A stretch of DNA of 64,000 nucleotides, from assembly GCF_021018895.1 (NCBI RefSeq), contig NC_079376.1, positions 25,718,501-25,782,500 of the forward strand, written 5' to 3'. Shown one piece after another: positions 25,410 to 54,665 of the stretch. Made by a program: the position numbers and the translations under genes. Every line of letters begins with the position of its first letter. Position 1 is the first letter of the stretch. The DNA comes from Seriola aureovittata. Taxonomy: Eukaryota; Chordata; Actinopteri; Carangiformes; Carangidae. The notes below the pieces were generated by a model. The model made no database searches, had not been told where the DNA came from, and was given only the letters and a program-made list of their open reading frames with translations.

Positions 25410-25940
25410 TCATTTTTATGTTGAATTCAAGGATGAACTGATTAGATTTTGGTGGTCAAAGGTCAAGATCACGTTGACCTCACAAAATATAGTTTTGACC
25501 TTGTGAACACAATATGTCATTAACGCCTTGAGGGAATTTCTTCAAATTTGGGGAAAACATTCACCTGGACTCACGGACAAACTGATGGGATTTCGGTGTC
25601 TAAAGTTCAAAGGTCAAGGTCACAGTGACCTCACAAAACATGATTTTGGCCTTGTGAACACAATATCTCCAGAATTCTTCAAGGGAATCCCTTCAAATTT
25701 TGCAGAAATGTCCACTTCGGCTCAAGGACAAACTGATAAGATTTTGGTGGTCAAAGGCCAAAGGTCAAAGTCAGCTTCACCTCACAAAATACTTTTTAGC
25801 CATAACTCTTCACACAGCAATTATGACAAAATTCACATAAATGGTTGATATTTTCTATGACTCTGGATAAACAGGGATGTAACCTGAAACTAGACTAGTC
25901 TGAGTGCAGGAGGCAGACAACCACCAGGAGGTTCTAGTTC
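25410..25940 (+). repeat. Repeat family A, copy 1 (three tandem monomers)
   Basis: Three head-to-tail units of exactly 151 bp, measured between AAAGGTCA anchors at 25458, 25609 and 25760. Each has the order 'CTGATxxGATTTxGGTG', AGGTCA repeats, 'CCTCACAAAA', 'CTTGTGAACACAATATxTC' and 'TTCAAATTT'. DR1-type half-site pairs lie at 25453-25465, 25604-25616 and 25755-25767, and a perfect palindrome AGGTCACAGTGACCT at 25617-25631. It ends with the family tail GATAAACAGGGATGTAACCTG. The 106-codon frame across it is fortuitous. Confidence 0.8.
25617..25631. promoter_or_regulatory. Perfect AGGTCA-N3-TGACCT palindrome in repeat A
   Basis: AGGTCA CAG TGACCT is the consensus oestrogen response element geometry (inverted half-sites, 3-bp spacer). 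It overlaps the end of an imperfect DR1. Presence is certain; receptor binding is inference. Confidence 0.6.
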
Positions 25941-26269
25941 AGCATTAATTATGCCTGAAATGTGCTTTTACTCCTGCACCTTTGTCTTCCGCACACTCAA
26001 ACGCTTTTAATAGAGCTAGCTGTGGAGAGGACTTGTTAACTCTTCACTGCAGTTCGGGGGAGATTTATGAGGGGTTTGGGAGTCCAAAAGGCAACTAGTT
26101 AACCCCCAAACATTAGTATCTGTTATGAGCTCATACGTTGACACAAGGTTTGAGTGGCAGAGACAGCGGTGTCTGGAGTGTTTCCCTGTAGAGAGGCCTA
26201 CATCATCATTTAAATATTTCAATCCCTGTGTTTGTGTCAGGAAGGCAACTCTCACAGACTCCCTGCCGT
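25941..26269. other. No recognisable feature
   Basis: Unique-looking DNA. Confidence 0.35.
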
Positions 26270-26470
26270 TCTCTGTTAATGAATATTAAGAGGGACATTT
26301 TCCTGAGGGTGAGGCCCCTTTTATTTATTCCCTTTATTGTTTCAAACTCACTTCTCTCGCGCGCTTGGTCTCTCTGCCTCTAATTTAATTGTGCGCTCAT
26401 CAGCTTGCGTGGCGTTTGCATCATTACACTGTGTTGACCTGGCTGAGATCAAGCAGAGGATGCAACGAAT
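26270..26470. promoter_or_regulatory. Candidate homeodomain-rich non-coding element
   Basis: Contains TTAATGAATATTAAG, TCTAATTTAATTGTGCG, CTCGCGCGC and GTTTGCATCATTACAC (octamer-like plus ATTA) within 200 bp of otherwise unique DNA. There is no coding potential. This is a motif-based guess. Confidence 0.3.
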
Positions 26471-26774
26471 GTGCTGTGCAAGACAATAATAGAGAGGATG
26501 AGCCAAAGCATGAAACCAGCTCTTTGGGTTTGGAATCAAAGTAAACAGTATACAGTTCTATGGATACTAAGAGAGGAAAGGAGCGTGAACTGTAACAATC
26601 TTAGATTTGCAGCCACTACGCTACAAGCCCACCAACTACACATGTGCTCCTCCAAGCAGACCGAAAGAAAGACTAGAAAGAACTATAACAGCAACAACAA
26701 CTACTACGCATTTCTGGTTTCTGCAGCTCTGTGTACACATCCACAAGAGAGTATAATTGAGGCCTGAGAGTGAT
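26471..26774. other. No recognisable feature
   Basis: Contains a 98-codon frame (26471-26767) without domain signature. Confidence 0.4.
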
Positions 26775-27330
26775 CAGACCCATCAGAGCAAACTCCTTCT
26801 CTGTCTTCATAGTCCTAGACCCGTCTGCATCATCCGACATAGTGAACCACCAGATCCTCCACCCTTACAGGGTGACTTTCTGTGTTCGCTACCTGTCGTG
26901 TCCGACCTGATGGCTCCTGCTATGAGGTGACATAGGAAGGACTGGTGCCTCCTACAGGAGTCCACGGGGTTCCGCCTGCTTCTCTGCTACAGAAGGAGAC
27001 TTGGTGCTGACATGGAGGCTTGTATTGCTACTTGTCCAGCTGACATTTCTGAGTGGATGGCCAGGCTCCACCTAAACTGCAACATGGACTAAGTTTCTGT
27101 TCCTCCAGGGGAAAGGCGTCCCTCATCTAGACCCGCGGGATCGCCATGACAACTTCATGACCAACTTGGATGCAAGGAACCTGGAGGTGACCCCTGATGA
27201 TGAACTGTCTTCTGGCAAAGATTGCAGCAGTAACCCGCTCCTAACAACCACTGCCTCCGGACGTTTGTACATCCAATCACACTGAGGACAGTGTGGTCAC
27301 TCATTTCTGTCAGACTCTGTCCTGGCTTCA
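26775..27330 (+). pseudogene. L2-like LINE reverse-transcriptase fragment
   Basis: Plus-strand frames, with shifts, retain FIVLDPSASSDIVNHQILH (family form 'LLDLSAAFDTVNHxILL', palm domain) near 26806 and DISEWMARLHLNCNMD (family form 'DISxWMxxHHLKLNxxKTE') near 27043. Further degraded 'ARNLGVTLDxxLS'-like sequence follows around 27170. Stops and frameshifts show it is dead. It is separated by only about 40 bp from a SINE on the opposite strand. Confidence 0.7.
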
Positions 27331-27366
27331 CAGTGGACGAACGTCACAACACGACGCACGTAACTT

Positions 27367-27525
27367 TAATGTCTTCATTGGATAGGACGGTGAAAGCAGA
27401 CAGGAAACACGGGGACGGAGAGTAGGGGAAGGACATGCCGCTAAAAGTCAAACCCGCCAGGAATCGAACCACTGCTCGGGAAATATGCAATCACAAGCGC
27501 CTTAACCACTCAGCTAGCTGGTCAC
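27367..27525 (-). mobile_element. tRNA-derived SINE with intact A and B boxes
   Basis: Minus strand: tRNA-like head with A box TAGCTGAGTGG (27506-27516) and B box GGTTCGATTCC (27460-27470), both exact consensus matches, then a tail TTTCCTGTCTGCTTTCAC..CCTATCCAATGAAGACATTAA. The internal Pol III promoter is thus sequence-intact, the best preserved SINE head in the window. The tRNA cloverleaf is probably too diverged for a true tRNA. Confidence 0.75.
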
Positions 27526-28249
27526 ATCAATCATGTCAGGAGTTTTGATTATCAGGAAACCCTGCAGCAGATGTCGGGTCTTCAATCATGTTGACTAAAT
27601 TACTACTAAAACTCAACACTTAAACATTTTCCTGTTGTGTCCGTTATGTAAGAGGTTTCATTGGATTTTGTGATAATTGACACGTTCTTAACCCTCCGGT
27701 CCACGATCTTGCCACTTTCCGTGTTTGATGGTTAACAGGCTGATAGCTAGTGAAATTTAGCTCAATCCCAGGGCAGGCTAACTGTTAGTTTCCTCCACAA
27801 TTCCTTTCAAATGTCATACTCATCATTTTTAACATAAATAGTAAAAATAACTGTAAGCTGGTGAAGCCTCGTGAGTTGGCAGTGTCGCAAATCAGCCAGT
27901 TACAGTGAATTCTAACTACACCGTAAAACAGCCAATTCCTATAAGCCTAATAATGTTTGAACTTACATGAGTTGTTTTAATATTGAAAACAACACATATA
28001 CAGTACTCTGTAGTAGGCTTTGTGCTCACTCAAAGACAGTTTGAGGAACATTCAATTTAAAACATGATATTTTAACTAATTTACTTGCGAACCACTAGGG
28101 GTCGCTTTAGAAAAGGCTGTGCAAAACTAAAATGATCAGATAAGTGAACATGGTAATTATTACCTGCTAAACATCTCTGAATATCTTAACAGCAATGATA
28201 TCTCTCAGCTGATGAATAGAATTACAGCAGTGTCTGCAAACCTCTGGCA
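27526..28249. other. No recognisable feature
   Basis: Unique-looking AT-rich DNA. Confidence 0.4.
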
Positions 28250-28415
28250 TTCACGTCCTCGTGGTTGTTTCCTCCAACGACCAGACAAGTTGCAGGAAAT
28301 TTGGCCACAGTCTCTACTTCCTGAGTTACAGTGTTGAATAATGACCATAAGTGTTTTTGCAGAACATTATGATGTCACAGTGAAGTTGACCTTTGACCTT
28401 TTGATGCCTCTGGCT
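28250..28415 (-). repeat. Repeat family A, copy 2 (tail end)
   Basis: Reverse-strand end fragment: CCTCGTGGTTGTTTCCTCCA, CAGTCTCTACTTCCTGAGTT, then a perfect DR1 (minus strand) at 28387-28399. It has the alternative tail also seen in copies 3 and 5. Confidence 0.75.
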
Positions 28416-29504
28416 CTGACTGTGCTGAGGCATAAAAATCTAGCATTAACACCAATAAAATCACATTGTCTAACTTAAAATGAGCAATAGGAGATGCTGT
28501 TTGTATCTGTTTGTTAATGAATGGTATAAATATGTAACATAATAAAAGTTACTGTATCCAATGTGACTCGCAGGGATAGCATCTTAGAATAAAGTGTGAG
28601 TGTGATTAATGGGAGGTTTTTCACTGTTTTTCCCATTGTGCCGACGCTTTGCGAATGCAGCAGGAGCACAGCCTCATAGAGACACTAACAAGTCTGTGGA
28701 CTGAGTTTCAAGCATTTTTTTAATGCACTTTTCAGCTGCTTTCCTTTGTAAATATTCCTGGCCTCAGAGTTGTTTTTTTACATCTGCACATGCTCACACA
28801 CACTCAGTGAGGCAGCTGCTGTGGGTGCAGATTATTCCATCAATGTCAAACTTCAATGACACTTGTCATCTGATAAGGTTTGGTTTTAATAAATGAGGGA
28901 CGAGCAGCCAAGCTGAGTGCAGCAGTTTAACCCCCTGTATGCACGGCACAGCACGGCGTCAGGACGACGCCTCCTACATCACCTACACAGCCTTCATGGT
29001 CAGAAACAGCTCTATCCTCACATTCATCAGCCGCAGCAGTTCAGAGCTTCACCACTGAGTTGCAGCTGCTGCAGCTGGAGAAATGGTGAACTGTGGCTCT
29101 GATGTCCCATGACAGCTAACATGTCCTAACAGGTCTGCTAAGTTATTTGTTTAAAACATTGGATGACAGATTTAGCACATATTCAAGCGCGAGTGACATA
29201 AAATGCCAAGCACATTCATGCACATTCTCGTGGCATACGTGGAGAGGCACAAAAATGAATTCTGGTGACAGTGGCTCTAGTTAGTTGTGTCTGTTTTGAC
29301 ACAGTGCATATGAAGAAAAATGCTTTGGCGCTGTTGCTGCTTCTCCCTCCATAGAAGTGTTACACAACAGTAGATTGGTGTGACGCAACTTACCTGACGG
29401 TGTCTTCCAGTTCTGACTCACCTGTTCTGTTTGGGTGTTAGTTCACTGAAGCTGACAACAGCCATGCTTATCTACCCAGCATAAATGTGGGAAACTCAGT
29501 CATA
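28416..29504. other. No gene; mostly unique sequence
   Basis: Several ATTA-containing stretches (for example AGATTATTCCATCAATGTCA near 28830 and TTTTAATAAATGAGGG near 28884) and clustered CAGCTG E-box-like motifs at 29065-29080. No supported frame. Confidence 0.35.
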
Positions 29505-29640
29505 CACTGATGGAGCAGCCATCTGAGGCAATTCAGGGTTCAGTATCTTGCCCCAAGGACGCTTCGACCACTGACCCTACAACCAATGGACGACCCGCCA
29601 CACCCCTTGAGCCACTGCTGCTCAAATGTATAAGTCTTGT
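29505..29640 (+). repeat. Widespread fish repeat, fragment (same type as 24860-25065)
   Basis: GGCAATTCAGGGTTCAGTAT, CTTGCCCCAAGGACGCTTCG and the terminal CCTTGAGCCACTGCTGC phrase identify the family's 3' part. Confidence 0.65.
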
Positions 29641-29732
29641 GTCATATCATTTATAGGGTCAAAGAGAGAAAGCTAAAGAGGTGGAAAACCATTAATGGAG
29701 ACGAATAAGGTTCAAACCCACAAAACTTTATT

Positions 29733-30235
29733 CTAAAGGTCCATATAATATAAAGGTAGATGTCCATGTCTTCTTTCATCTTAAACAGCTCTCAGCCATG
29801 CCCCAAGCCACGCCCACCTGGACCCTAAAACCAACCTTGTAGGATTTTGTTTCCCCTAGTGTTTACCTGAAATCTGCTATATTTTTACTGGATCATTCAG
29901 AAAAGGCTCAGAAAAGGCTCAGAGCCTCCTCTCTCCCGATTGGCTCACCGACCTGTTGTTACTAGAGCTCCAGAGAGAAGCCTGAGAGAGGGGATGTAAA
30001 ACTACACTGAGATGGTTTTTGGTTCTTAAAACCACAAATATATCTTCAACACTTTAAATAAAACACAGAAGAAGAGGAAAATACGGAGCTTTAAACATCA
30101 CTGAGACCTTTAACACTGAGCACCTTTAACAGGATCAGTTGACAGTCTGAGTCTGAGGTACATTAGGATCGGATGGCTCAACACTTCAAATAAAACACAT
30201 GGAAAGTGCAACATATGGACTTTAAATTTGAATGA
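29733..30235 (-). mobile_element. Repeat family B, copy 4, with a partial second end
   Basis: Starts CTAAAGGTCCATATAATA and reaches its partner end ACGGAGCTTTAAA near 30094. It lacks the CRE-containing quarter and one arm of the palindrome. The sequence to about 30175 matches the flank of copy 2, and a further fragment 'AACACTTCAAATAAAACACA..ATATGGACTTTAAA' follows at 30180-30230, as if a second partial B end were joined on. Confidence 0.7.
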
Positions 30236-30885
30236 AGATGTTTCCAGAGATCCCACATACAGGGAGATGGACTGGACTCTGGTGATCTTGTCCTCCTACT
30301 TTAATGCCGCTTAAAAGGAAATGTTTACGGGGTGATCGGGGGCTCTGGAGGTTCATCTCATCCTAACATGATGTAGTTGTTGTTTTTCAGTCTGTTTCCT
30401 GATGAACAGCTTCAGTCTGTATCTGGCAGTGACGGTGACAGCAGGAAGACACACGGCGTCATGGAGCTGCTCTCAGCGACACTCTTGTTTGAGCTCATGA
30501 TAGCCCTCAGCTCCTTTATGAACCAATATACCTCAATGCTCTGAGACTTTTTTGAACATCTGTATAATGTCTTTTGTGTTTATTAAGCCCTCGCAGATTA
30601 CCTTCTCTTTCCCCTGGTGCTTAACCTGCTTCTTTTATATATTGTGACCATGAAAACAGTTTCCCTTTTCTTTTCACTCTCTGCACTGTATAATGATTAT
30701 TGAGGCCTGCGAGCTGCTGGAATTTAATTTCTCCACATAAATCTCCACAATAGGAAAAGGAAATTAAAGTTGCCATTACTGTCGGCGGTATTATCGTATC
30801 CTCACTTAACCTGCCATTCAGGAGGAATGAAACATTTATACTGCAGCCCCTCCTTCCTCCTCAGCCCTTGTGTATCGTTGTGTGA

Positions 30886-30887
<2 letters not shown>
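30236..30887. promoter_or_regulatory. Unique sequence with candidate regulatory block
   Basis: 30690-30850 is the notable part: AATGATTATTGAGG, GGAATTTAATTTCTCC and GGAAATTAAAGTTGCCATTA, all homeodomain-type cores in a repeat-free stretch. There is no coding frame. The rest shows nothing. Confidence 0.28.

Positions 30888-30940
<53 letters not shown>
30888..30940. repeat. (GT)n then (GA)n microsatellite
   Basis: GT at 30888-30924, GA at 30925-30940. Confidence 0.95.
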
Positions 30941-31180
30941 TTGAGGGATAGGAGTAAACCAGGGATATTGATATTTAAGAAATTTATATTTTGACGAAGC
31001 CAGCCTTTAACCAAACATGTTTTGTGCAGGATCTACAGAACAGATCTGACGTTCATGTGAAAAGGTTGGAATTTTTTGGGAATTGTTTCTTGGAAGGCAG
31101 TTTTGTTTCTTCATCTATCGTTCCCACCAGCTAATCTTCTCAGTAATCCCTGGCCAGCTCATAATAACAATACCTTGAAT

Positions 31181-31181
31181 G

Positions 31182-31212
<31 letters not shown>

Positions 31213-31266
31213 ACACACACACACACACACATGGACTAAAAAAAAAAAAAAAAAAAGAAAAAAAAA
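31181..31266. repeat. (CA)n with CG interruptions, then poly-A
   Basis: CA array at 31181-31231 containing GC interruptions, then an A-rich run at 31238-31266. Confidence 0.93.
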
Positions 31267-31289
31267 TCAATTATGCTGGCCCTGACCAG

Positions 31290-31520
31290 AAGTGTCTCAT
31301 TATTTCATAGGCAATAACCTGAATGATAGAGTAATAAAGAGCAATTTATTTGGAGAGGGGGAAGTGAGGGGGAGGGATGAGCAGAAGATGGATGTGTTCA
31401 GATAGACAGATCTAATTAGCCTCATCCGAGCTGCAGCTAGCCGCTCCGCTCAGACTAATCCTGGGCTACAGCTAATGACCAGCAACCTACACCTCCTCCT
31501 CCTCCTCCTCCATCAGCCTC
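31290..31520. promoter_or_regulatory. Candidate homeodomain-rich non-coding element
   Basis: Repeat-free stretch with CATTATTTCATAGGCAATAA, GAGCAATTTATTTGG, GATCTAATTAGCCTCATCCG and GACTAATCC (bicoid/OTX-type core), ending in a (CTC)6 run at 31493-31511. Inferred from motif density only. Confidence 0.3.
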
Positions 31521-36510: not shown

Positions 36511-37009
36511 GGCTAAGAGATATCTATCCTCCACTTCGTTTCACCCTCCTTCCACATCCATCCCTCTTGGCTTTCTCTGGCAACTGTTCAAAAGCAGAAT
36601 TTTCCTGCTAACAAGTTTGTTCTTGTGGCCAGAGTGGAGGGGCTCAGTGTTATGAACACTTTCATGCAGAGTTACATGCAATACAATATGCCTTCCACAC
36701 AGCTGATGAATAACACTGGGATTTGATTTAGATATTATCAGATACAGTGTACCCTATTGGACACATCCCACCAACCCAATAAAAGGTCACAGGTGTAAGA
36801 GGCTGTTATTTTGTCCTGCATGGCACTTTACATCCTCCTCAATACTGTGCAACTGCGAACTGCAAGAAGCAAAGAACAGAGAAGAATTAATCAATTAAGA
36901 TTTTATATATTTTTGATTCTACATTAAAATACTCAAAACTTAAATGTTTTCAATTGAATTTGAGTTAGTGGACAAACTTGGCCAGGTCAGAATTTTTATA
37001 TTGTTTTCA
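36511..37009. other. No recognisable feature
   Basis: Unique-looking DNA. Confidence 0.4.
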
Positions 37010-37465
37010 GGTTGTACGTCTGTCCATCCCATTTTCAAGGACGCACTTCTTCAGTAACACTTTCACACACAATTTCAGTAGTTCTATGTGGCAATGGGAT
37101 GTTGTCTGATACGTCCGTCTGTCCATCCGTCCAGTTCTCATGGACGTGATATCTCCGTAATGTGTTGACGGAACTGGTGGACAAAGGTCAAAGGTCACGG
37201 ATGACGTCACAAAACACGGTTTTGGCCTTGTGACCACAATATCTCTAGAACTTCAAATTTGGCACAAACATTCACTTGGACTCAAGGATTAACTGATTAG
37301 ATTTTTGAGGTCAAAGGTCAAAGTCACTGTGACATCATAACATTCTGTAAAAACACATCTAGCCATTATTCAATGCTGTAACTCAGGAAGGAGAGACTGT
37401 GACCATATTTCCTGATACTTGACTGGTTGCTGGAGGAAACAACCACGAGGAGACGATTCTAGTCT
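37010..37465 (+). repeat. Repeat family A, copy 3
   Basis: Starts with the family head CAGGTTGTACGTCTGTCCATC. Two monomers here are 123 bp apart (one carries a deletion of about 28 bp). Perfect DR1 motifs lie at 37185-37197 and 37308-37320. A perfect CRE-like TGACGTCA is at 37202-37209, where other copies have TGACCTCA. It ends with the CTCAGGAAGGAGAGACTG..GGAAACAACCACGAGGAG tail. Confidence 0.8.
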
Positions 37466-40199: not shown

Positions 40200-40410
40200 A
40201 GCTAGAATCACCTCCTCGTGGGTGTCTGCCTCCGCCACTCGGACTAGTTTCAGACTACATCGCTGTCTATCTAGAGTCTTATAAAACATGAACCATTTGT
40301 GTAAAATCGTGTCATAATTGCTGCGTGAAGTCTTGAGTTATGGCTAAAAAAGTAATTTGTGAGGTCACACTGACATTGACCTTCGACCTTATATCACCAA
40401 AATCCGTTCA
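40200..40410 (-). repeat. Repeat family A, copy 4 (3' end)
   Basis: Reverse strand: family tail (CACCTCCTCGTGGGTGTCTG, CGGACTAGTTTCAG) through one monomer end, with a degenerate DR1 near 40374-40390 (TGACCTTCGACCT). The most diverged copy. Confidence 0.65.
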
Positions 40411-42034
40411 TTCTCCGTTCAATCCATTTTTCTTTGCAAAGATGATATAATATGTTTTCTGAAAAGCCCTACTTCTTCAGGGCAGCCTGGACTCTACACT
40501 GACTCAGTATCAGAAAGTGACAATACAGTGTTACAACACTGAGGCTAGCTGGTTAGCATGCTAACTTCGTAGCTTGCAGCCTAAATCATTTTTTTCTTGT
40601 CTTTGTTTCTGTAATTGTGATGTTTGGCTCAGTCAGAATTGTAACTGTAATTTACAGTCCTTTAACAAATTTGCTTTGCTAGCAAGTACCAAATTAAGCT
40701 TTCAGTGCACTTCTCCATGCCTGGACATGCATTGTGTTCATTACCATGCAAAGACAGATTTTGAGTTTTCTAAATATATAAACTTATTAGTTTCAGTCAA
40801 ACCAATTAGTTTCTCCATTACTAAAGCTCTTTAGGGAGATCGCTGGCTCAATTGTTAAGTTAGGCCAAGTTGTGAGGGTGAACAGTGTAACAAGAAAAAG
40901 AATGAAAGTGCATAAACTAGCAGCCACAGCGAGTTTTCCTCTGCAGGGTGTCTCTGCTCAACCTGTGAGACGACCAGTTTGTCTTGTTTTATTTAGTTTT
41001 GGTGAACTGACACTTTAACTGTAGTGTTTGTAGCAGCCTTTTCATTTATGTTTCCAATACATTGAATCAATCACTGAGTTGTTTTACTTCAACATGTGTG
41101 TAAATCTCAGCATGATTCTGCACAGTAGGGAAAAATTGAAAAATTCACCTTTACCCTTCTCTTTCTTTGTCTCTTCGATCATTAGGACTAGATCTACAAC
41201 ACAGTTGCACCTCTGCACGCCTCCTCATTCAAACCCTTCTTTCATTCTCTCTCTCTCTCTTTCCTTTCCCACCTCACTCTCTCTCTTGCATAAATGCCAG
41301 CTCCCCTACCTGAAAGCCTTTAGCACTGATTTACGAGGGAGTTTGTATCGTTCATATTATAAATCTCTCACCCCTGTGACACTCCTGTGCTGGTATTCAT
41401 CCGACATTTTTTATTTTGTCTGTTTTGTTACAGAGTGCTTTGGACTGGGGCCAAGGAAAGGCACTCTGGGATTATCGAGAGGTTTAACAGGAATGAAGTG
41501 TGAATTACAACCATCCGGCTTCACCGCCGCTGCCGACCTCTACAAACCCGCGTCTCTATCCTTTTGTTTTCTTTTCTGACCTGTCAGATAATTTCTCACC
41601 TCGTACAGAAATGGCAGATGAGAGAAGATTGAAAAACCACTTCTGCAGGGCCTCAAAAACAGCCAGTAAGTGCTGCAACACTCAAAGAAAAAGACATTTA
41701 GAGGAGAGATGGAGAATAGCCACTTTTTGAGCACCCAAGCTTTTTAGTTTTCTTAAATAGCTGGTTTGCGCTTTTTTGCTCTTAATGGTGCTTTAAATTT
41801 AGTCTTTTGTACAGTGCAATGTAAATTATCGTCACTATCTACAGCTGTTTGCAGCCTCTGCATTTCATCAAAACAATTATAGTTTAAAACCCTGCCACCC
41901 TGGATATAGTTACGTCACAATTTGACATTTTACACAGAAATCCTCCTCTGCAGTTTTCCACATACATGACACATTATAAAGCACATGCTAATATGTGTCA
42001 CAAATACTTGCTTTGTGCATTTACAAGTGTTAAA
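40411..42034. other. Unique sequence, candidate block at 41320-41560
   Basis: 41320-41560 is compositionally balanced and repeat-free (GAAAGCCTTTAGCACTGATT, GGGATTATCGAGAGG). A polypyrimidine-plus-CAG at about 41430-41443 resembles a splice acceptor, but the open frame behind it has no recognisable product. TC-rich run at 41245-41290. Confidence 0.3.
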
Positions 42035-43110: not shown

Positions 43111-43364
43111 TTTTTCCTGCTCACAGAGACACTGGAGGAGATGTACTCTCTGTCCTCTGTTAAATCATGTTTGAACACTGCTTGCAGAATAAATCAAATT
43201 TAATCTTTAAAGTGGTCATTCATGAGTTCTTCATTTGAATACTTCATGGCTATCTATGATGCTCATTGTGGGCATCACCTGAATCAAATAGTGACTCCAC
43301 CACTAATTTTGTTCTATTGTTTATACCAGGTTTATTCTGGACCCACATGGACACATATCTTCTT
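43111..43364. other. No recognisable feature
   Basis: Unique-looking spacer. Confidence 0.35.
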
Positions 43365-43844
43365 TAAAGCTCCATATTTTCTTCTTCTCCTGTGTTTTAT
43401 TTGAAGTGTTGATCCATAAGAAGATATATTTGTGGTTTTAAGAACCAAAAACCATCTCAGTGTAGTTTTATATCTCCTCTCTCAGGCTTCTCTCTGGAGC
43501 TCTAGTTACAGCAGGTCAGTGAGCCAATCAGAAGAGAGGAGGCTCTGAGCCTCTGTTCTGATTAGCTGACTGTTTTCTGAGTGATCCCATAAAAATAAAG
43601 CAGATTTCACGTAAACACTCACAGAAACCAAATCCTGCACCGTTGGATGGTGGGTCCAGATGGGTGGGGCTGGGGGTGCTGCTGAGAGCTGTGATTGCTT
43701 TGTTGTGACATCACAATGTTAGAGAAGTTCTGAGAGCTGGTTTTGAGGCTCCGTTTCTGAATACAGGCGGACTGAGCACTTTGATACTTCGAACCAAGAC
43801 CTGCTGTATAATCAGATCAATCTAATTATAATCATAACTAGAAT

Positions 43845-44240
43845 TATATCACGTCCTGGTTGTTTCCTCCACCAACCAGTCAAGTATCAGGAAATATGGT
43901 CACAGTCTCTCCTTCCTGAGTTATAGTGTTGAATAATGATCAGAGGTGTTTTTGCAGAACATAATGATGTCACTGTGAAGTTGACCTTTGACCTTTTGGA
44001 TATGAAATGTCATTGCCATTTTATCCTTATAGACATTTGAATTGTGTCATAGTTAGTGCATGAATTCATGAGTTATGGGCAAAAACGTTTGTGAGGTCAC
44101 CGTGACCTTGAACTTTGATCATTGACCTCCAAAATCTAAGCAGTTCATCATTGAGTCAAAGTGAACATTTGTGCCAAATTTGAAGAAGTTCTGTCAAGGC
44201 GTTACTGAGATATCACGTCCACGAGAATGGGACAGACAGA
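43845..44240 (-). repeat. Repeat family A, copy 5, nested in B
   Basis: Reverse-oriented. Perfect DR1 (minus strand) at 43982-43994 and a perfect palindrome AGGTCACCGTGACCT at 44094-44108. Ends with the head phrase CACGAGAATGGGACAGACAG. Confidence 0.8.
44094..44108. promoter_or_regulatory. Perfect AGGTCA-N3-TGACCT palindrome in repeat A
   Basis: AGGTCA CCG TGACCT, consensus oestrogen-response-element geometry with an intact spacer CpG. Confidence 0.6.
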
Positions 44241-44537
44241 GGGACAGACCACCCGAAAACAATATGTCGCCCGTGTTGGGACTCATCCAAGAAGACCACA
44301 TCCTCTTTGCTCTACAGACAATAGAACTCACTTCCCCACAGTTCCTCACTGTTCACACCTGGGGAAGACCCTCCCCCCGGACCTCACTGACCAGTGAGTG
44401 TTGGTCAGTGTGTGACATGTGACCCCCCAGGGTGTCACCAGACAAAACCTGATCTCCTTCTTTAGCTGCATTTTGACCAAAAAGTACCTGGAACTTTAAG
44501 TTCCACTGGTGCATAAAAACATAACAGACATGGAAAG

Positions 44538-45129
44538 CTACCTTTATACAATATGGACCTTTAATATCAGCACAGGAAATTAGTAAGTCTAAAGATAACC
44601 AGTTGTTCTCTATGAAAGCTAAAATGCCTACAGTATCACAGGCTCTGCCATATCAACATATGACACTGTCCAGTTTTCCCAGTTTCACTGCTCATACTTG
44701 CAACAGTTTTGTCACGTGCAGCCACCATGGCACAACAGATTTGTGTGTTGATTCCTCTGTGAGCTCCTGCAACTTACTCTTAACACCGTTATATGTATGT
44801 ATGCAGAAGTATACCTCTCATTTTAGGAGTTCGTCAGTTGAAATTCACGGTAAAATCAGAGGCCTGTGTCCTACAGTTTTTCAGAAGATTTTGAAACAAA
44901 CACTCCTGGCCATTTCATATTGTGATTAGTCTCGTGTGTGAGTGTGAAAAAAGGAGGCACGATTCAAACTTCTCTCAAGCTCCTCATTTCTACAATTCAT
45001 CAAGATACACAAAGGAAACATAATTCTAGGGAAGGGTGGCCATGTAGGACAGAAACAAACACTTTTGGTTTTTCATTTGATTTGACTTTGACATTTGACT
45101 TTGAAGGCCTAAGTACCAAAATCTGCAAT
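44538..45129. other. No recognisable feature
   Basis: The 108-codon frame at 44603-44929 has no domain signature. Confidence 0.4.
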
Positions 45130-46230
45130 TCCTCTATTGATATTCCACATCTGGTCCAATTCTGGCGAACACAAAGAAAATCTTCAAGCTGTCAGTCAAT
45201 ACCAGATGATAACAGCCGCACTCTGCCCAGATGTGGAAGTACATGGGCCAGACTCACTGAATGTGAGTGTAGATAACACATACAGTATTGAGGTAGGAGG
45301 AGGAGGAGCTGATGAAAAAAATAGAAGGACTGAACATGAACCAGTTCATTTTAATTTGCTTGAACTGAACTTTGAGCTGTAAAGTGAGACCTTACTCAAC
45401 ACTGCTGCCAGACCAAACATCGACCTCCGAGGCTGAAACATGAAGCCAACACTGAAGAAGCAAAACCTGCAGTTCCTTTAATGACCACTAGAGTCTGGCT
45501 CCAACAGTGAGTCAGTCTCCATAGACTCCCATGTTAAAATGTCCAACTTTACAGCAGAAATAAACATGTTTACAGCCTGGTCTCTATAGATAATTTCTTC
45601 CTTCATGACAATTGTTTATATAACTAACCTGTTTACATTTTATTAAGGCTTAAAGTTATGTAGACTGGCTGTTTTGAGCGACAGGAGGATGAGCATAGTC
45701 TCCACACAAGCCCCACCTCTTTTCCCATTTCTATGCATCTGTGCCAGCGACAGCCAGAGCTGAAGGCATATTGTTTACGAGTTGTCCGTCCGTCTTCGTG
45801 AACAAAAATCTCAATAACACCTTGAAGGAATTTTTCAAATTTGGTACAAACATTCAGTAGGACTGAAGGATGAACTAATTAAATTCTGGTGGGCAAAGGT
45901 CAAAGGTCAATGTCAGTGTGACCTCACAAAACACTTTTTAGCCATTACTCAAGACTTCAAACATCAATTATGACAAAATTTCACACTAATGGTTCATATT
46001 ATTATGACTCTGGATAAACAGGGATGTAACCTGAAATTAGTCCGAGTGGCGGAGGCAGACACCCACGAGGAAGTGAATCTAATTTGATTAGTGATGAGTT
46101 AGGCAGAGTCAGACACTGCCAAGATGGTGATGGTGGAGCAGCTCACTCTGAGCTTTAAAACCACTCTTCAGAAACCTGTGGGTGAAGTCACAGAGGCTAC
46201 GTCCATCTTTAATTACAGTCTATGGCCAAC
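45130..46230 (-). repeat. Repeat family C, copy 2, split by a nested repeat A
   Basis: The reverse complement matches 16850-17490 on both sides of a foreign block: 46090-46230 gives the start (CCACAGGTTTCTGAAGAG, CTGCTCCACCATC) and 45130-45660 gives the rest. The interrupting block is repeat A copy 6 with its flanks (about 45733-46085). The end 'TCCATCTTTAATTACAGTC' extends C beyond copy 1. Confidence 0.75.
45733..46085 (+). repeat. Repeat family A, copy 6, nested in C
   Basis: Begins TGTGCCAGCGACAGCCAGAG, the head seen in copy 7, holds one monomer with a perfect DR1 at 45897-45909, and ends with CTCTGGATAAACAGGGATG and CGGAGGCAGACACCCACG. Confidence 0.8.

Positions 46231-46926: not shown

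Positions 46927-46959
<33 letters not shown>
46912..46959. repeat. (GT)n microsatellite
   Basis: About 24 GT units with one GC interruption. Confidence 0.94.
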
Positions 46960-48060: not shown

Positions 48061-48579
48061 TCAAATCTATTCAGTTTACGTCATTTCATCATGATAATTT
48101 ACTCAGTATTAATACGAGTAAAAAGGAGTAAAAATGTGATTCTGCACATGCCCAGTCTAAATGTTGAGCACCAAATCCAAACAGTCCAAATCCATAAACC
48201 ATCAAGTTTACGATTGGTCTCAAGTGGACTTTCTCCAGACTTCAACAGAGGCTGCTCGGGGTTCACACTTCACCAGACACTTGTTAGATTATCCCTTTGT
48301 CTTAGCAACATGGCTGTGAGGATGGATATGATGTTATCCCATCTCACACTGCAACCTTACTGACTTCATGTGATGGCAGTCAACACATTACCTTACGTAT
48401 GGCCAAAAACCTCAGGGGCTTAGTCCACAAGCCTAGAGGGATCAACAGTGTTTTTTTCTGCAGGGATTTCCACAACATGTGGTCCCCACCTTTTGTGGCC
48501 TTTCACTGTTGATGTTTTACAACCATTAATGGCCCAATACAACTAGATGATGTAAGTAATTATATTGACAGTCATATGC
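48061..48579. other. No recognisable feature
   Basis: The 108-codon frame at 48037-48363 is partly in the preceding element and has no signature. Confidence 0.4.
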
Positions 48580-48905
48580 AGGAGAGGCAAACCAGGCAAA
48601 TGTTTTGGGCCCCCAAGGGGAAAAGGGGTGTCCGATGGCCCCTCATATTGGCACATTTTGCAATGACAAATTTAAAACCCCTTAAACCTCCAATAAACAC
48701 AGACACTACATCCTGCTGCCCCAAAACCCCCGATTATATTTGATGTAGGTTGTGTCTACCCCTTGCCTACATGTGAGGTATTCATGGAGCATCTGTAAAT
48801 GGTAGCATCTGTCAATGGTCTGTATGTGGGGGGGGGTTTCTGGGCTTCGATGGGCTTGTTTACCTGGGGACCCCCAGAGTCTAAAATTGCCACCGTAACT
48901 GCTGA
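48580..48905. repeat. Probable dispersed repeat
   Basis: Phrases such as TTTTGGGCCCCCAAGGGG and GGGGACCCCCAGAGTCTAAA resemble a dispersed fish repeat; a G10 run lies near 48830. Single copy here. Confidence 0.3.
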
Positions 48906-48929
48906 CAGAGGGGCTTCTACAAGGAACTG

Positions 48930-49145
48930 AATTAAAGGTCTGAAAAAGTTTCAGTTTTTGATTTTTAATAAATTTGTAAAATACTTTTAAAAAAATGTTT
49001 GAACTCAGTAAACTATATGGACAACCCTGCTGTCCGTATAGTTTACTGAGAGTAGACTGATAGGAAAAATGTCAGGTTTATCCATTCAAAACTAAATCTA
49101 CAACACAATAAAGTAAAGGTATCTGAATAATTGTCCTTATGCCTT
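48930..49145 (+). mobile_element. 3' end of a Tc1/mariner element carrying an inserted palindrome
   Basis: TCAGTTTTTGATTTTTAATAA and AGTAGACTGATAGGAAAAAT..ACACAATAAAGTAAAGGTATCTGAATAA correspond in order to the right end of fish Tc1 elements and to the copy at 16740-16849. A 47-bp palindrome (49004-49050) sits between them and has no counterpart in the other copy. Confidence 0.6.
49004..49050. repeat. Near-perfect 20-bp inverted repeat, 7-bp loop
   Basis: Arm CTCAGTAAACTATATGGACA pairs with TGTCCGTATAGTTTACTGAG (one mismatch). The loop is ACCCTGC. Confidence 0.92.
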
Positions 49146-49489
49146 TTTCCTAATGGGGTACAATGAGATGAGGTAGTAATAGGATTCCTGACCTGGACCC
49201 ACAGTCAGATGAAGGAATGGTTTTCAGTTCTTTCTCCTGATCTTCAAGGATCAAGCTCAGGTTCAGGGTTTAGTCACAGTTCATTACTACCCCAGTGGAT
49301 GTGACCGTACCCCATTACAGGATCTTCAGGGTCAGGTCTGGCCTACATCTACAAAATCTGTATCTTTTACTTGTTTTTTTAGAAATCTGGTGAAGGGCTG
49401 TTTTTTTATCTTTTTCTGGTTTCGTATTGTCTCTCTGTTCATCGTCTAGTCCGGGACTGTGACTGCTCAGATGTCCATTGACGGTTTGG
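49146..49489. other. No recognisable feature
   Basis: Unique-looking DNA. Confidence 0.35.
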
Positions 49490-49990
49490 ATTACTTCAGT
49501 GTTAGCGGCTCCAGATATCAAACAGACCCGGTGATTCTAACACTGAATAAAGCAGTTTGACATTTAAAGTCAGTGTTTGAGCGACGCTGTACGGCGATTG
49601 ATGCTGACCTTTGTTTGGATTGTTTCTCTGATAACTTATGAACCAGACGTTCAGCAGGTTTTTACCAGCAGCTGAATTATCCACAGAGGTGTCCTCCTCT
49701 CCATAACAAACACACAGGGGATTAAAACCAGTAGAAACACCCAGAAAACAGTTTGACTTAAAAAATCAAAGATTCACCGACGCTCTCCAGAGACACAGGA
49801 CAGGACGTCTCCAGCAGCTGGGAGCTGAGCTGTCTCACATTTCCTCAGCTTGTTTCTCTGATAACTTCAGATCCAGACGTCCGACGACTAAAATCCTTCA
49901 TCTGGGTCAAATATAGAGCTGAAAACCACCAAGGTGGAAAAAGTGTATGTGGCTTAAAACTAGATAAAAGTCAATGTTGAGCTTCTGTCA
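49490..49990. repeat. Probable dispersed repeat with internal duplication
   Basis: TGTTTCTCTGATAACTT plus a 'CAGACGTYC' phrase occurs twice, at 49621 and 49851, 230 bp apart. Wording (CCACAGAGGTGTCCTCCTCT, CTCCAGCAGCTGGGAGCTGA) matches a fish repeat I recognise without a name. Confidence 0.4.
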
Positions 49991-51114
49991 GACAAACACA
50001 CTGACACATGATCACAGAGGATATGATGTCATTGACAGGTGACCAACAAAACAGAGCTTTACCATGATTAAAAATCACAGATTTTTCTGGTTTGAAAATT
50101 GATGGAAACATTTGGGAAAATGTAAGAACACAACTCAACAACATATAGAACACAGGTCTTGTTGTTTTTAAACATTTTTATGTGGAAAAGTTACATATCA
50201 TGACTTTAAATCAAACTTGAAATGGAAAATGTACCTGGACAAGTTACTTCCCTCTTTGACTCTGCTTCTGATGTTTGAGCTGAGCTCTGAGTCAAAGATG
50301 GATCTGATCAACAGATATGTTCTGATATACACAGCTCAGCTACTGCCTTTAGTTCACTCAGGTTTACAGTCAGAACAGTTTCCATATGATGTCAGTCACA
50401 TACAGTAGAAGTATATTTCATTTCCTGTTACATACTTACTGTCCTACATGACAAACATTGTTTTACACTGGTATTCAGAAGGTTGAGAGGTACTGTACAT
50501 TTCAATTAGCACTAATACAACAGACAAAAGGTTTCATGTATCATGTTAGGGCCTTTCAAAAGTAGAGTTCAGCTCTTAATTTGAAACATAAGGCTGCTTT
50601 ATGGCCACGCACTCACAATGTTTCAGCTAAAAGTCGACATCAGAGCGCATCAGTGATTGACAGTGATAAAAGCTAATGTGAAAACTTCAGAAGAGTCACT
50701 TAAATCGTCCTTTTCTGCTGCTCGGATTCATTTTTGAGACATGAGAAACACATTGTACTGATGATGAAATGAATTTTTTCTGCACCTCTCAGTAGACTTC
50801 TTGACAATAACACATCTGAGAGCTGTCGGTGTGCAGGGGCCACGAGAGGAGAGCAGAACACATGGCACCACTGACACAGCTGCTGTCTGTGAAAATGAGT
50901 GACTGAGTCATTCCCTGTTTTAACATGACAGTTTGAAAGGCCTCAGAGAACGTGGTGGTGTTAGATTTAACGTGGTATATGCTGTAAAATAAAAGAAGTG
51001 ACCTGGGTTCTTCATTGTGATGTAATAGTCCAATGCAGCTACCTGAAATACAAAGAACTTCATTAGTCCAGCTGATCCAGCCCACACAGCATGTACAGTA
51101 TCACTACCATCAGG
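49991..51114. other. No recognisable feature
   Basis: About 1.1 kb of unique-looking DNA. The 98-codon minus frame at 50789 has no signature. Confidence 0.4.
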
Positions 51115-51480
51115 AGGCGTCTGATTGGTTCCAGATTCATCCTGCAGCAGAACAACGAGTCATAAAGAACTATCTTCACAGACAGGAAGGACCAGGAGTC
51201 TTGCAGCCCTGATCTCAGCATCATGGAGTCAGTCTGGGATCACATGAAGAGACAGAGGACACCGAGAAAGACTGAATCCACAGGAGAACCATGGCAGGTT
51301 CTCCAAGATGCTGGAACAATCTACCTGACAAGAACCGGAAGAACTGTGAGCAGGTGTATGAGGAGAACTTGAGCTGTTCTAAAGACAAAGAGGGGTCACA
51401 GCAAATACTGATCTGATACGGCTTTTTTCTCTTTACTGCACTTCAGATGAAGTTCACTGAGAAATAAAACTATTCATGAC
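51115..51480 (+). pseudogene. Tc1-like transposase C-terminal fragment
   Basis: Plus-strand frames, with stops and shifts, show RLIGSRFILQQNN (family form 'FxFQQDND', around the second catalytic Asp, here changed to Asn), then SPDLSIMESVWDHMKR (family form 'SPDLNPIExVWDxLxR', leading to the third acidic residue), then GHSKY before the stop and an AATAAAACTATT polyadenylation-like end. The N-terminal two thirds is missing. Non-functional. Confidence 0.65.
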
Positions 51481-51710
51481 ACAGTTGCACAGTTCATTAT
51501 ATGCAGTATACAACAAAACTGAGTAGCGCCCTGATCAGAATTAACTTAAATTATTAATCCTGACCATTTAGTAGAATTACATTAGTTGAAGAATGAATGA
51601 AAAAAGGAATGTTTGACTCATGAAACTATAATGAAAAGTTCATATTACTGGTGTTCCCCTTTATCTTTGATTTTATATTATTATTTTGCATTATGATGTA
51701 ATGTTTTCTT
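51481..51710. other. No recognisable feature
   Basis: Short AT-rich spacer between two transposon remnants. Confidence 0.35.
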
Positions 51711-51785
51711 AAGTGGACCACAGGAAGAGTAGCGGCTAGCTTGTTAGTGGCTAATGGGGATCCAAATAATAAATAAATAAATGAA
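51711..51785 (+). mobile_element. LINE 3' tail
   Basis: GTGGACCACAGGAAGAGTAG, GCTAATGGGGATCCAAATAA and an (AAAT)n tail are the familiar 3' terminus of a fish non-LTR retrotransposon. Only the end is present, as expected from 5' truncation. Confidence 0.65.
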
Positions 51786-52482
51786 CATTAAAACCAACTC
51801 CAACTAAAGTTGGTTCACTCTTCATTAGAGAGATTTCTTTTTTTTTTTGTGAGATTTCCACCTTTATGTTTGATGACAGATTTGATGCTGGTAGACATGA
51901 AAGATACCAGTTTTGTTTCTCTATCTTCTGCTTTAAAATCTTCTAAAGGTTTTCTGTTGGATTTAAGTCATGGACCTTTTTTAGGTAATTGCTCCATTCC
52001 ACCTTTTGCTCTCATGCAGCCTCATATCAATCTGCAGTTTTGAAGTCAGTGTCCTTCTCACTGTCTGATCAGCCACTGAATCACAAGTTGCTACAGATAA
52101 TCCTGTTCAACAAACTGAGTACAACAAACAACCTGGACACCCTCCAGCACTGAAATCACACAGTGAGGAGCTACAGAACTTCATTCAGTGTCCGTGTGCA
52201 GGAAGTGAGATGAGGTTCAGGTGAACACACAGACTGACAGACAGGTGACTCTGCCATGTCTTCACCTCCTCCTCGCGCCATGCTGCTCCATTAATCCCCA
52301 CATTCCTCCACCCCTCTGACCTTCCTGTGGGACGGGTCAAAGGTTACACTCACCACAGGACCCTCCTCAGAGCGCCATATTCCCAGAGGGAGCACTCAAC
52401 TTCAGCCCTCACCTCTGACCTGAGGACAGGAGATGGAGAGACAGGAGGGTCATGGTCAAGGAGTGTCTGCTCAATGTCAGGA
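51786..52482. other. No recognisable feature
   Basis: Unique-looking DNA; T12 run at about 51838. Confidence 0.4.
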
Positions 52483-52494
52483 GCACACACACAA

Positions 52495-52546
<52 letters not shown>
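52483..52546. repeat. (CA)n microsatellite
   Basis: About 25 pure CA units after a short interrupted start. Confidence 0.96.
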
Positions 52547-52548
<2 letters not shown>

Positions 52549-52713
52549 ATGTGAGATGTCAGGACTCATTACATAATAGATTCCTTAGCCCCTTACCCTA
52601 AACCTAAACCTGATTCTGACATGAACCCCAAACCAAGTCTGAAGACCAGACAACATGTCCTCACAACAATAGCTTCAAACCAGAATATGTCCACACAACC
52701 AAAGGAAAACATG

Positions 52714-52715
<2 letters not shown>

Positions 52716-52771
<56 letters not shown>

Positions 52772-52784
52772 CACACACACACAC
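52716..52784. repeat. (CA)n microsatellite
   Basis: About 34 units with one CG interruption; 170 bp from the previous array. Confidence 0.96.
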
Positions 52785-52895
52785 TGTGGCTGTCGTCATC
52801 CATCACCCAGGCGCGTTTCAGCCCCAGACTACTTCTGGATGTCAACATAGACACTATTGATTTCCCATTCATCTGGACCAAAGACCTACAGGAGA

Positions 52896-53080
52896 GAAAG
52901 GAAAGGAAAGGAAAGGAAAAGAAAGGAAAAGAAAGGAAAGGAAAGGAAAGTGGAACAGGGGAAGTGAAAAGAAGGCAAGATAAGGAAGGTAGAAGATTAG
53001 AAGAAAGAAAAATAACTAGAAAAAGAGCTGGAAGTGTGAGAAATAAAAAAACAAGAAAAAGGAAAGGAAAGAGGACAGGT
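52896..53080 (+). repeat. (GGAAA)n pentanucleotide and flanking polypurine tract
   Basis: GGAAA/GAAAA units at 52896-52950, then 130 bp nearly pure A/G. Confidence 0.92.
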
Positions 53081-53514
53081 CAGGATATTAAAGGGACAAT
53101 AGACAAGTTTTTTGCTTTAACTTATCATTGTGAAGTGCATGTTGATTGAACAATGTAATGGCTGTAGAATAATGAAGCCATCAGTGTTTAGATTGGTTCC
53201 CTGTAATACAAAGGACGTGTGTCTGCCAATGCACAACCAAAACAGAGAGTGGATAGTGTTTTTCTTTCCCTGGTAGCTTTCGTTAGCTTTCCCCAGGTAG
53301 CAGAAATGGTGATGACGGTGTACCATTGTTGTTCAGATTGGGATTCTTACGGTTGTTTCTTGCAATGAACAGTAGCTAATGCAGTTGCTAATGCTACCGC
53401 GAGCAGCCAGAAACAAACAACTTATTGTCTGTTTGAAAATGTAAACTAATTACATGTTTCCTCAGGGGGAGCTCTCTAAAATGAGCAGTGGGGGGTTGTA
53501 TTTTGCTCCTATAA
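53081..53514. other. No recognisable feature
   Basis: Unique-looking DNA between two polypurine tracts, with CAGTAGCTAATGCAGTTGCT near 53370. Confidence 0.4.
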
Positions 53515-53895
53515 TGAAAGACAGGAGCAGAAGCAGAAATGACAGGGAGGGAAAGAAAGGAAGAAAAAAAAACAAACAACAAAAGGAAAAGATGATGATA
53601 AAGAAAAGAAGAAGGGAAAGCAGGAGAAGAAAAAAAGCAACAAGAATAGCGAAGCAAAGGAAAAGAAAGAAAGGAACAGGTGACAAAAGGAAGTAAAGAA
53701 GGAGACAAGAGGAAAAGATATAAAGGAAAGAAGTGAGAGGAAATCTATGGAAAAGAAAAAGCAAAACAAGGAGAGAAGGGAACAAAAGTTAGGAGGAGAG
53801 GAAAGAAAGGAAGGAAATGAAGGTAGGGTAAAGATACAAGGAGAGCACAGGACAGAAAATGAAATGAGGGGAGGAAAAGAAATTAAAAAAGCTAG
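53515..53895 (+). repeat. 380-bp polypurine tract
   Basis: Almost only A/G on the plus strand. The 80-107 codon frames in it (Lys/Arg-rich or Phe/Leu/Ser-rich) are compositional artefacts. Confidence 0.88.
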
Positions 53896-53923
53896 ATCTG
53901 AGGATGATAAATAAAGTATGTGG

Positions 53924-53961
53924 GTATGTATGTATGTATCTATCTATCTATCTATCTATCT
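53924..53961. repeat. (TATG)n(TATC)n tetranucleotide microsatellite
   Basis: TATG/TGTA units switch to TATC units at about 53938. Confidence 0.93.
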
Positions 53962-54099
53962 GACAGTGGTGGTTTGACTGAATAAACAAGAACAAGAACC
54001 TTAAATCAACAACGAGTTAGCACTAAAGCTGGAGGTTGTGGTGGTGGAGGACGCATCTGATGCAAGTGACGGTTATAGTGCTTCATGGGTAACTGAGTT

Positions 54100-54665
54100 T
54101 TTATGCCTCAGCACCAGCGACAGTCGGAGCCGGAGGCATTATGTTTTCAGGTTGTCCCTCCATCCGTCCCATTCTCATGGACACGATATCTCAGTAACAC
54201 CCTGATGGAACTTCTTCAAGTTCAGCACAAACATTCATGCGGACTCAAGGATGAAATGATGAAAGGTGAAAGGTCAAGCTTACGTGACCTCACAAAACAC
54301 ACCGTTCTGACCTCTTGAATGTGATATTTCAACCACCTTAAGGAAATTTCTTTAGATTTGGCACAAACATTCACTTAGACTCAAGAATGAACTGATTAGA
54401 TTCGAATTTGAAAGTCAAAGGTCAAAGGTCACTGTGACCTCACAAAACATGTTTTTGGCCATAACTCACAAATTCATACACTAATTATGACACAATTTAA
54501 CCCAAATGTGTAAAAGGATAAAATGAAGTGATGATGTTTCATATTCAAAGGGTCAAAGGTCATCTTCACTGTGACATCATAATGTTCTGTAAAAAGCACC
54601 CCTGGCTATTACTCAACACTGTAACTCAGGAAGGAGAGACTGTGAGCAACCATGAGCTGGTGATT
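54100..54665 (+). repeat. Repeat family A, copy 7 (most complete head)
   Basis: Starts ATGCCTCAGCACCAGCGACA and GGTTGTCCCTCCATCCGTCC (family head), then three monomers with AAAGGTCA anchors at 54269, 54424 and 54555 (155 and 131 bp apart). Perfect DR1 at 54419-54431, preceded by a further AAGTCA half-site, and immediately overlapping a perfect palindrome at 54426-54440. Ends in the GGAAGGAGAGACTGTGAGCA tail. Confidence 0.8.
54419..54440. promoter_or_regulatory. Composite DR1 plus palindromic half-site module
   Basis: Three AGGTCA half-sites share one 22-bp block: a direct pair spaced by 1 bp, whose second half-site also forms a 3-bp spaced palindrome with TGACCT. Both geometries are exact consensus. 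Binding is inferred. Confidence 0.6.

Follow-up and report, generated by a model that had tools for sequence, protein, structure and literature searches.

Non-autonomous elements of the HINE/DINE-1 kind have been described from Drosophila, a mite and Culex (PMC4067079) and from the Pacific oyster (PMC7492417). In the parts of PMC4067079 drawn on here, these elements carry subterminal inverted repeats (subTIRs), a microsatellite, central repeats and a 3' stem-loop, and they insert at T-rich targets; their partner Helentrons are known, and Helentron proteins are reported from many fish. The oyster elements, Cg_HINEs, appear in the portion of PMC7492417 used here with a 5' subTIR and its complementary inverted repeat, a GTCY/GTCC microsatellite, central repeats of 138-181 bp in arrays averaging 2-5, a 3' subTIR with a palindrome, T-rich insertion and truncated copies. 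The same features recur in family A, a dispersed repeat with seven copies in a 64,000-nucleotide stretch of Seriola aureovittata DNA (C13:25718501-25782500, here called the window); the likeness to DINE-1/HINE elements considered here is one of architecture, and the host is fish-like where that of Cg_HINE is an oyster. Family A is likely to be a non-autonomous Helentron of the HINE/DINE-1 kind in a fish-like genome, with an AAGGTCA core in its central repeat that most likely serves the element itself. As what is most likely a HINE, it is ordinary in kind and less ordinary in this core. The string GGTCA is absent from the text of PMC7492417, sequence figures being outside that text.

The ends of family A were read by eye on 47 copies, 40 from the genome and the seven of the window, which are named below by their position in kilobases. 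The 5' end has the consensus TTTTTATGCCTCCGC...GGAGGCATTATGTTTTCGGGTTGTCCGTCC with the hairpin partner GGAGGCATTATGTTTTC, followed by a GTCC/GTCY stretch, and the 3' end reads GGCGGAGGCATACAACCACGAGGTGGTAATTCTAG/TTT (the slash marks the terminus). The consensus 5' subTIR and its nearby complementary inverted repeat (TATGCCTCCGC ... GGAGGCAT) fall in the 11-15 bp range of HINEs, and the repeat is nested in the subTIR as in Drosophila DINE-1 (PMC4067079, in the part consulted). At the other end, the inverted 3' subTIR GGCGGAGGCATA matches the 5' subTIR over 11 bp in the consensus strings. A GTCY-type microsatellite (GTTGTCCGTCCGTC or a variant of it), which many copies have in a short, degraded form, lies 3' of the 5' module, and the central tandem repeats of ~150 bp sit within the ~140-180 bp of HINEs; in the 25.4-kb copy a tandem period of 151 spans 25454-25789. 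A palindrome, ACCACGAGGTGGT, precedes the consensus 3' end by 8 nt, where HINEs have 8-35 bp. Among 23 3' ends, a loose pattern located 18 termini, 17 of which have T next to them, in keeping with a T-rich target; in L045 this pattern picks up a word just ahead of the real end.

Individual copies preserve these modules unevenly. The 5' arm was recovered in 24 of the 47 copies (with up to 9 mismatches in 33 allowed) and the 3' end in 23. The 5' hairpin is present in the 54.1- and 28.3-kb copies and degraded in the 45.7-kb copy, with folding scores relative to shuffled sequence of z -2.05, -5.16 and 0.07 (no fold), respectively, and four 3' stretches fold barely better than shuffles (z -0.9 to -1.6). 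On its 3' side, the 54.1-kb copy has the palindrome and the terminus GTAG/TTTT, and its 3' subTIR is not recognisable. As in non-coding HINEs, the window copies have no coding capacity: the sole stop-to-stop frame of at least 110 amino acids inside any of them is 25507-25848 (113 amino acids). A search of the window against Rfam gave no match.

The most conspicuous content of family A is its nuclear-receptor-type motifs. The window holds eight exact direct repeats with a one-base spacer (DR1, AGGTCA-N-AGGTCA), against a mean of 0.04 and a maximum of 1 under dinucleotide shuffling, and family A accounts for six of them; the remaining two are at 10293 and 57046. Because the copies are related by descent, these sites are not independent draws. 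A preliminary description of the window had located the six DR1s, all of which proved exact and correctly placed, in seven copies of one repeat, whose mutual relation is borne out by blastn; its chance figure of 0.008 agrees with our own arithmetic under uniform base composition, and the further one-change DR1s that it mentioned are there too, with 16 window sites at no more than one mismatch against 0.46 expected. Its statement that nearly every copy carries DR1 sites applies to all seven copies when one mismatch is allowed and to five when the DR1 must be exact (28.3, 37.0 with two, 43.8, 45.7 and 54.1), the 25.4- and 40.2-kb copies having the one-mismatch form only. Not named in that description were three exact inverted repeats with a three-base spacer (IR3, the palindrome of the oestrogen response element, ERE; AGGTCANNNTGACCT), all of them in family A.

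Whole-copy alignment was poor because the copies are rearranged, and unit-level alignments were used in its place. The copy alignment places the DR1s at two homologous positions in the repeat: site 1, which adjoins the IR3 palindrome and reads GGTCAAAGGTCA followed by AGGTCACTGTGACCTCACAAAAC, and site 2, which lies in the 3' tail and reads CCAAAAGGTCAAAGGTCAACTTCACTGTGACATCATAATGTTCTG. Besides the exact sites, site 2 is represented by a one-mismatch DR1 at 54550. The consensus units of the two sites are collinear over ~150 bp and are therefore taken as old duplicates of one monomer. Among 21 copies with the word GTGACC, its distance from the anchor, a 28-mer just 5' of the tract, is 28/29 in eight and 35/36 in another eight, the other five distances being 21, 24, 33, 41 and 92; the columns of the extra 7-bp unit are gapped in 30-45% of copies in an alignment of 40 genomic units. 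Since the tract varies by whole heptamers, DR1 is best read as two neighbours in an AAGGTCA heptamer array. Both DR1 and IR3 appear in the column consensus of the 40 units, so that the receptor-type motif belongs to the element's own sequence. Directly abutting repeats (DR0), IR3 and TCAAGGTCA words share the core with DR1; TCAAGGTCA is the extended site of NR5A/FTZ-F1 or ERR. The RXR/PPAR/HNF4 geometry that the preliminary description had emphasised is thus not singled out, because DR1 arises from the heptamer array together with these other words.

Across the 647,093,275 bases of the genome searched, exact DR1 occurs 7,960 times (3,983 + 3,977 on the two strands), compared with 401 (205 + 196) for the reversed pattern. 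Perfect IR3, which is self-complementary and gives the same places on both strands, occurs at 2,515 places against 82 for its control, and AGGTCAAAGGTCAAGGTCAC is found 253 + 232 times against none. At up to three mismatches, the anchor 28-mer has 3,212 matches and the 3' end 1,368, with none for the control or the reversed pattern, respectively. The genome-wide excess of DR1 and IR3 supports the earlier proposal that a dispersed, transposon-like repeat acts as a vehicle spreading AGGTCA arrays. Family A is not the sole source of DR1, since a hand count of the 100 DR1 matches listed gives 63 A, 35 G and 2 C spacers. G-spacer DR1s (AGGTCAGAGGTCA; compare 57046-57058), some of them tandem, occur beyond family A, and another source must exist for them. 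The window itself is locally rich rather than typical, given that neither a DR1 nor a family A blast match is present in 20 segments of 10 kb, one from each of C1-C20 at 5 Mb. A separate observation concerns position along contigs: among the 99 perfect anchor units listed on C1-C12, 44 lie in the outer tenths, where 20 are expected (p 3e-8).

The core also turns up in other genomes. The 19-mer GGTCAAAGGTCAAGGTCAC matched seven stretches in 257 Gb of bacterial and archaeal assemblies, where ~1.9 are expected by chance on two strands. Three of these contigs, L001, L004 and L005, are coding bacterial DNA and were excluded, as was L006, an ambiguous case whose match lies at base 11 of a partly coding contig. 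Long open frames are nearly absent from the other three, which resemble animal DNA that ended up in symbiont bins; a single assembly yielded L002 and L003, and a Bathymodiolus gill-symbiont assembly yielded L007. L002 and L003 contain five and three exact GGTCAAAGGTCAAGGTCAC words, respectively, in tandem units of ~147 bp. Their 5' side shows a TTTTTATGTCCACCCC hairpin and then a GTCC-type stretch, and their 3' side shows GGGGTGGACAT (L002) or TGAGGTGGATAT (L003), the palindrome GTACCTTTCAGGTAC and the terminus CTCTAG/T; the subTIRs of L002 pair over 11 bp. In L007, two core words lie 158 bp apart, with a TTATGTCTCCCC hairpin and GGGGAGACGTAAG as its 10-bp inverse, and the 3' side has the palindrome GTTTTAGGTATCTAAAAC and CCTAG/TTT. 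At L007:4880-5390, the AGGTCA core is on the strand opposite the element's ends, an arrangement that differs from the fish element and from L002 and L003. By their sequence, then, there are three animal-like matches, two of them related, all with Helentron-type ends and with the core inside repeats. Among the contigs set aside, the largely coding Bacteroides contig L004, from a metagenome-assembled genome, has four GGTCA words in succession at 1564-1589, where its frames leave a short interval, with 7-bp steps between the first three; this row, which contamination, a chimera or chance may explain, is the best match of the fish profile. Pattern scans of viral contigs for the repeat gave no match.

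Conservation of the core was compared between monomer types. Between the site 1 and site 2 consensus units, the core is identical at 29/34 positions, the upstream part at 54/89 and the downstream part at 34/47, so that core and remainder (88/136) differ with a one-sided Fisher p of 0.014. Among 15 monomers from L002 and L003, the average is 0.958 over 27 core columns and 0.785 over the 120 others; this set leaves out three of 18 core matches, namely an overlapping register and the pair of AAACTC forms closest to the 3' end. The two monomer types of L002/L003 agree at 21/23 core, 46/94 upstream and 25/29 downstream positions, which makes the downstream side nearly as conserved as the core. These patterns hint at element-level constraint on the core, exerted by receptors or by the transposition machinery.

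Several results weigh against so broad a reading of the core. The presence of the core in L002, L003 and L007 follows from selection because it was the search word, whereas their Helentron-type ends are independent of that word. The L003 subTIRs pair over just 6 bp, and a GTCY stretch looked for by eye in L007 was not seen. With AGGTCA-type words masked, the fish profile found nothing better than E 0.12 in L002, L003, L006 and L007, which means that the shared part is the core and that common descent of the whole repeat is unsupported. The contrast between core and remainder in the site 1/site 2 comparison is modest, a tandem core tends to align well of its own accord, and the L002/L003 monomers were positioned by their core match. 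Core conservation is accordingly a lead rather than proof, since core-based selection, easy tandem alignment and array homogenisation all favour the same result.

Retention of the sites after insertion was measured in 40 copies, drawn from 100 listed matches (of 3,212 for the unit) whose 28-mer is intact; as the 28-mer lies just 5' of the tract, the tract itself is unselected. Within 100 bp downstream of the anchor, exact DR1 is found in 11 of the 40, DR1 with at most one mismatch in 26 and exact IR3 in 7, and the reversed motif never comes closer than three mismatches. The preliminary description had named better preservation of half-sites than of neutral neighbours as the test of its idea, and there is no clear sign of it: column identity is 0.860 for DR1 and 0.866 for the adjacent upstream non-site stretch ATTTTGGT. 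Relative to distance-matched upstream columns (0.810), the DR1 difference has a 95% bootstrap interval of -0.015 to 0.109. DR1 plus IR3 (0.845) does not exceed the adjacent downstream stretch (0.861); it is higher than the upstream monomer taken as a whole (0.779; difference 0.012 to 0.120) and the further downstream part (0.698; 0.108 to 0.188), and both of these excesses are also seen in non-site neighbours, with values as high. Site columns occupied by A, C or G are 0.07 to 0.12 above those elsewhere, and T columns are equal.

Word survival gives a similar picture. The best-kept of 137 12-mers is GGTCAAAGGTCA, present in 17 of the 40 copies against a median of 4; leaving aside shifted versions of this word, the runners-up, TTGGTGGTCAAA (13) and TGACCTCACAAA (12), both overlap half-sites, and the IR3 word AGGTCACTGTGA is kept in 6 copies (rank 46). 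At site 2, assessed on 15 of 16 rows after the site 1/site 2 junction L041 was dropped, site columns average 0.913 against 0.871 and 0.863, with intervals that span zero, and exact DR1 is present in 5 of the 15. There is no clear sign of host-level retention, and a small excess may exist. As the half-sites show no better column conservation than their neighbours, use of the sites by the host, including as receptor sites, is unsupported.

One copy offers a view of the insertion site. A third repeat family brackets the 45.7-kb copy (45143-45633 and 46083-46196) and has an uninterrupted copy at 16844-17494. The sequence CCATTT, the element and TTTGATTAG at 45.7 kb together correspond to CCATTTTTGGATTAG of the 16844-17030 copy, and the junction would represent insertion into a T-run without duplication. 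The right junction is clear and the left one weak: 13 of 18 bases match, a value equalled in 40 of 1,000 shuffles, and automatic scoring of joins puts another join first and the T-run join at rank 2,271 of 4,961. With a weak left junction and a low-ranking T-run join, the empty site is a hint and not proof. For Cg_HINE, the portion of the source used reports that no target-site duplication was found, whereas family A offers this one empty site. The junction of the 43.8-kb copy in a second repeat family is blurred.

The left junction and the join scoring tell against a Helentron, as do three further results. The strict 5' signature (T-run plus TATG[CT]CTC) is present in only 11 of the 47 copies. 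The 3' subTIR lies 23 nt from the terminus measured from its end and 35 nt from its start in the consensus, closer than the ~38-60 bp of the mite HINE-Mo families (PMC4067079, in the part used), and profile PF14214, sought as the autonomous partner, had 0 matches in the element's own genome with a control that was also silent everywhere, a result that does not establish absence, whereas DINE-1/HINE elements have known partners. A short interspersed element (SINE), a miniature inverted-repeat transposable element (MITE) or some other element could explain this silence, the many copies with no recognisable 5' end, and an absence of target-site duplication that rests on one half-clear empty site. 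Such a class is nonetheless very improbable, because the inverted repeats lie inside the ends and not at them, a palindrome and a CTAG/T terminus mark the 3' end, and the GTCY stretch and tandem ~150-bp units follow in HINE order. Within a Helentron, individual copies might still serve RXR, PPAR or HNF4 as DR1 response elements, with host selection keeping their sites. The large excess of DR1 and IR3 over control, the top rank of GGTCAAAGGTCA, the ~0.05 advantage over distance-matched columns at both sites and the margin over upstream monomer and far downstream part all fit that proposal. It remains improbable in view of an advantage that is inseparable from zero and vanishes against adjacent columns, of tandem redundancy, which can explain word survival by giving a tandem word two or more chances, and of exact DR1 surviving in so few copies despite an intact neighbouring 28-mer.

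The core could instead be a passenger, a heptamer microsatellite with no function for host or element in which DR1, DR0 and IR3 are chance readings. The 7-bp length ladder and the near-neutral decay after insertion make this a possibility to be taken seriously, if still a doubtful one, as old monomer types in two animals differ less in the core than in most of the sequence around it, and the same 19-mer occurs in elements of Helentron type from other hosts. A signal read by the Helentron machinery itself, used in Rep binding, replication or monomer recombination and not by host receptors, would account for a core seated in the central repeats that HINEs propagate, and its palindrome could pair on a single strand. 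We regard this as unlikely: the core of L007, one element only, runs opposite the element's ends, which better suits an orientation-independent binding site, and several oyster HINEs have unrelated central repeats in the portion of PMC7492417 used. A further and rather improbable proposal is that HINEs of distant animals keep the heptamer array for the sake of an ancient nuclear receptor specific to animals (NR5A/FTZ-F1, ERR or a DR1 binder of the RXR/COUP type, for instance), which would open or transcribe them in the germ line or early embryo. Selection would then act on the transposing lineage and not on dead copies.

Under the preferred reading, a HINE whose core serves the element, copies would be made by rolling-circle transposition with a partner's Rep/helicase, as expected from the known class. 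The central repeat carries the AAGGTCA heptamer array, terminating in the AGGTCANNNTGACCT palindrome, and DR1, being two neighbouring heptamers, would be spread by transposition and gained or lost by 7-bp length changes. After insertion, half-sites decay about as fast as adjacent DNA, so that for most copies the sites are probably not a reason for retention. Since the core ranks with the best-preserved parts of the repeat, both between old monomer types and in the elements of other animals, it most likely serves, or served, the element, possibly by binding the transposition machinery or an ancient AGGTCA-binding receptor of the germ line or embryo.

Protein-binding sites have been found in other mobile repeats. 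PMC9301316, in the part consulted, cites a rolling-circle transposon that distributes protein-binding sites along a chromosome and has a reported role in dosage compensation; the receptor sites of family A are putative. The same source describes oestrogen and progesterone response elements in Alu, likewise a mobile repeat with steroid-receptor sites in its own sequence; Alu is a SINE, while family A is Helentron-type with tandem heptamers. Searches of open-licence literature found no paper with the words of the repeat, apart from GGAGGCATTATG in papers unrelated by title, no paper joining Helentron and AGGTCA, and nothing on receptor sites in fish Helentrons; papers combining receptor, transposable element, teleost and AGGTCA were judged by their listing, and none is on topic. 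As far as these searches show, an AGGTCA core of HINEs is unreported. Two questions need to be kept apart, namely whether the host keeps copies, of which there is no clear sign, and whether the lineage keeps the core, of which there is some sign. A Helentron-type repeat can inflate motif counts in such genomes. If the receptor proposal is true, host genomes would receive a repeated supply of ready receptor sites, on a scale here of ~20 times (exact DR1) and ~30 times (perfect IR3) the reversed-pattern control. If the core is truly shared across animals, the central repeats of HINEs would offer a direct test bed for transposons living off nuclear receptors.

Table 1. Family A copies, exact receptor-type motifs and candidate empty site in the window
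Feature	Coordinates	Strand	Basis or details
Family A copy, 5' truncated	25420..25937	+	three ~150-bp central units; 3' end TTCTAG/TT
Family A copy with internal deletion	28251..28438	-	5' T-run and hairpin run straight into site 2 and the tail; approximate limit on the 3' side
Family A copy, rearranged, two exact DR1	36993..37462	+	3' end CTAG/T
Family A copy, 5' truncated (limit approximate)	40202..40420	-	3' subTIR and CTAG terminus, then C
Family A copy, 3' end CTAG/TT, 5' hairpin degraded	43838..44272	-	blastn, end reading
Family A copy, both ends present	45731..46082	+	another repeat lies on either side, one part each
Family A copy, nearly full	54102..54669	+	5' T-run, TATGCCTC hairpin, GTCY stretch, two central units, site 2
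Exact DR1, site 2	28387..28399	-	exact motif match
Exact DR1, site 1	37185..37197	+	exact motif match
Exact DR1, site 1/site 2 junction	37308..37320	+	exact motif match, copy alignment
Exact DR1, site 2	43982..43994	-	exact motif match
Exact DR1, site 1	45897..45909	+	exact motif match
Exact DR1, site 1, overlaps IR3 at 54426	54419..54431	+	exact motif match
Exact IR3/ERE palindrome AGGTCACAGTGACCT	25617..25631		exact motif match
Exact IR3/ERE palindrome AGGTCACCGTGACCT	44094..44108		exact motif match
Exact IR3/ERE palindrome AGGTCACTGTGACCT	54426..54440		exact motif match
Other repeat without insertion, candidate empty site for 45.7-kb copy	16844..17030	-	repeat comparison

The second dispersed repeat family of the window flanks the 43.8-kb copy in two parts (43363-43789 and 44526-44570) and is also present at 10402-10896, 19335-19863, 29734-30226 and 23114-23201.

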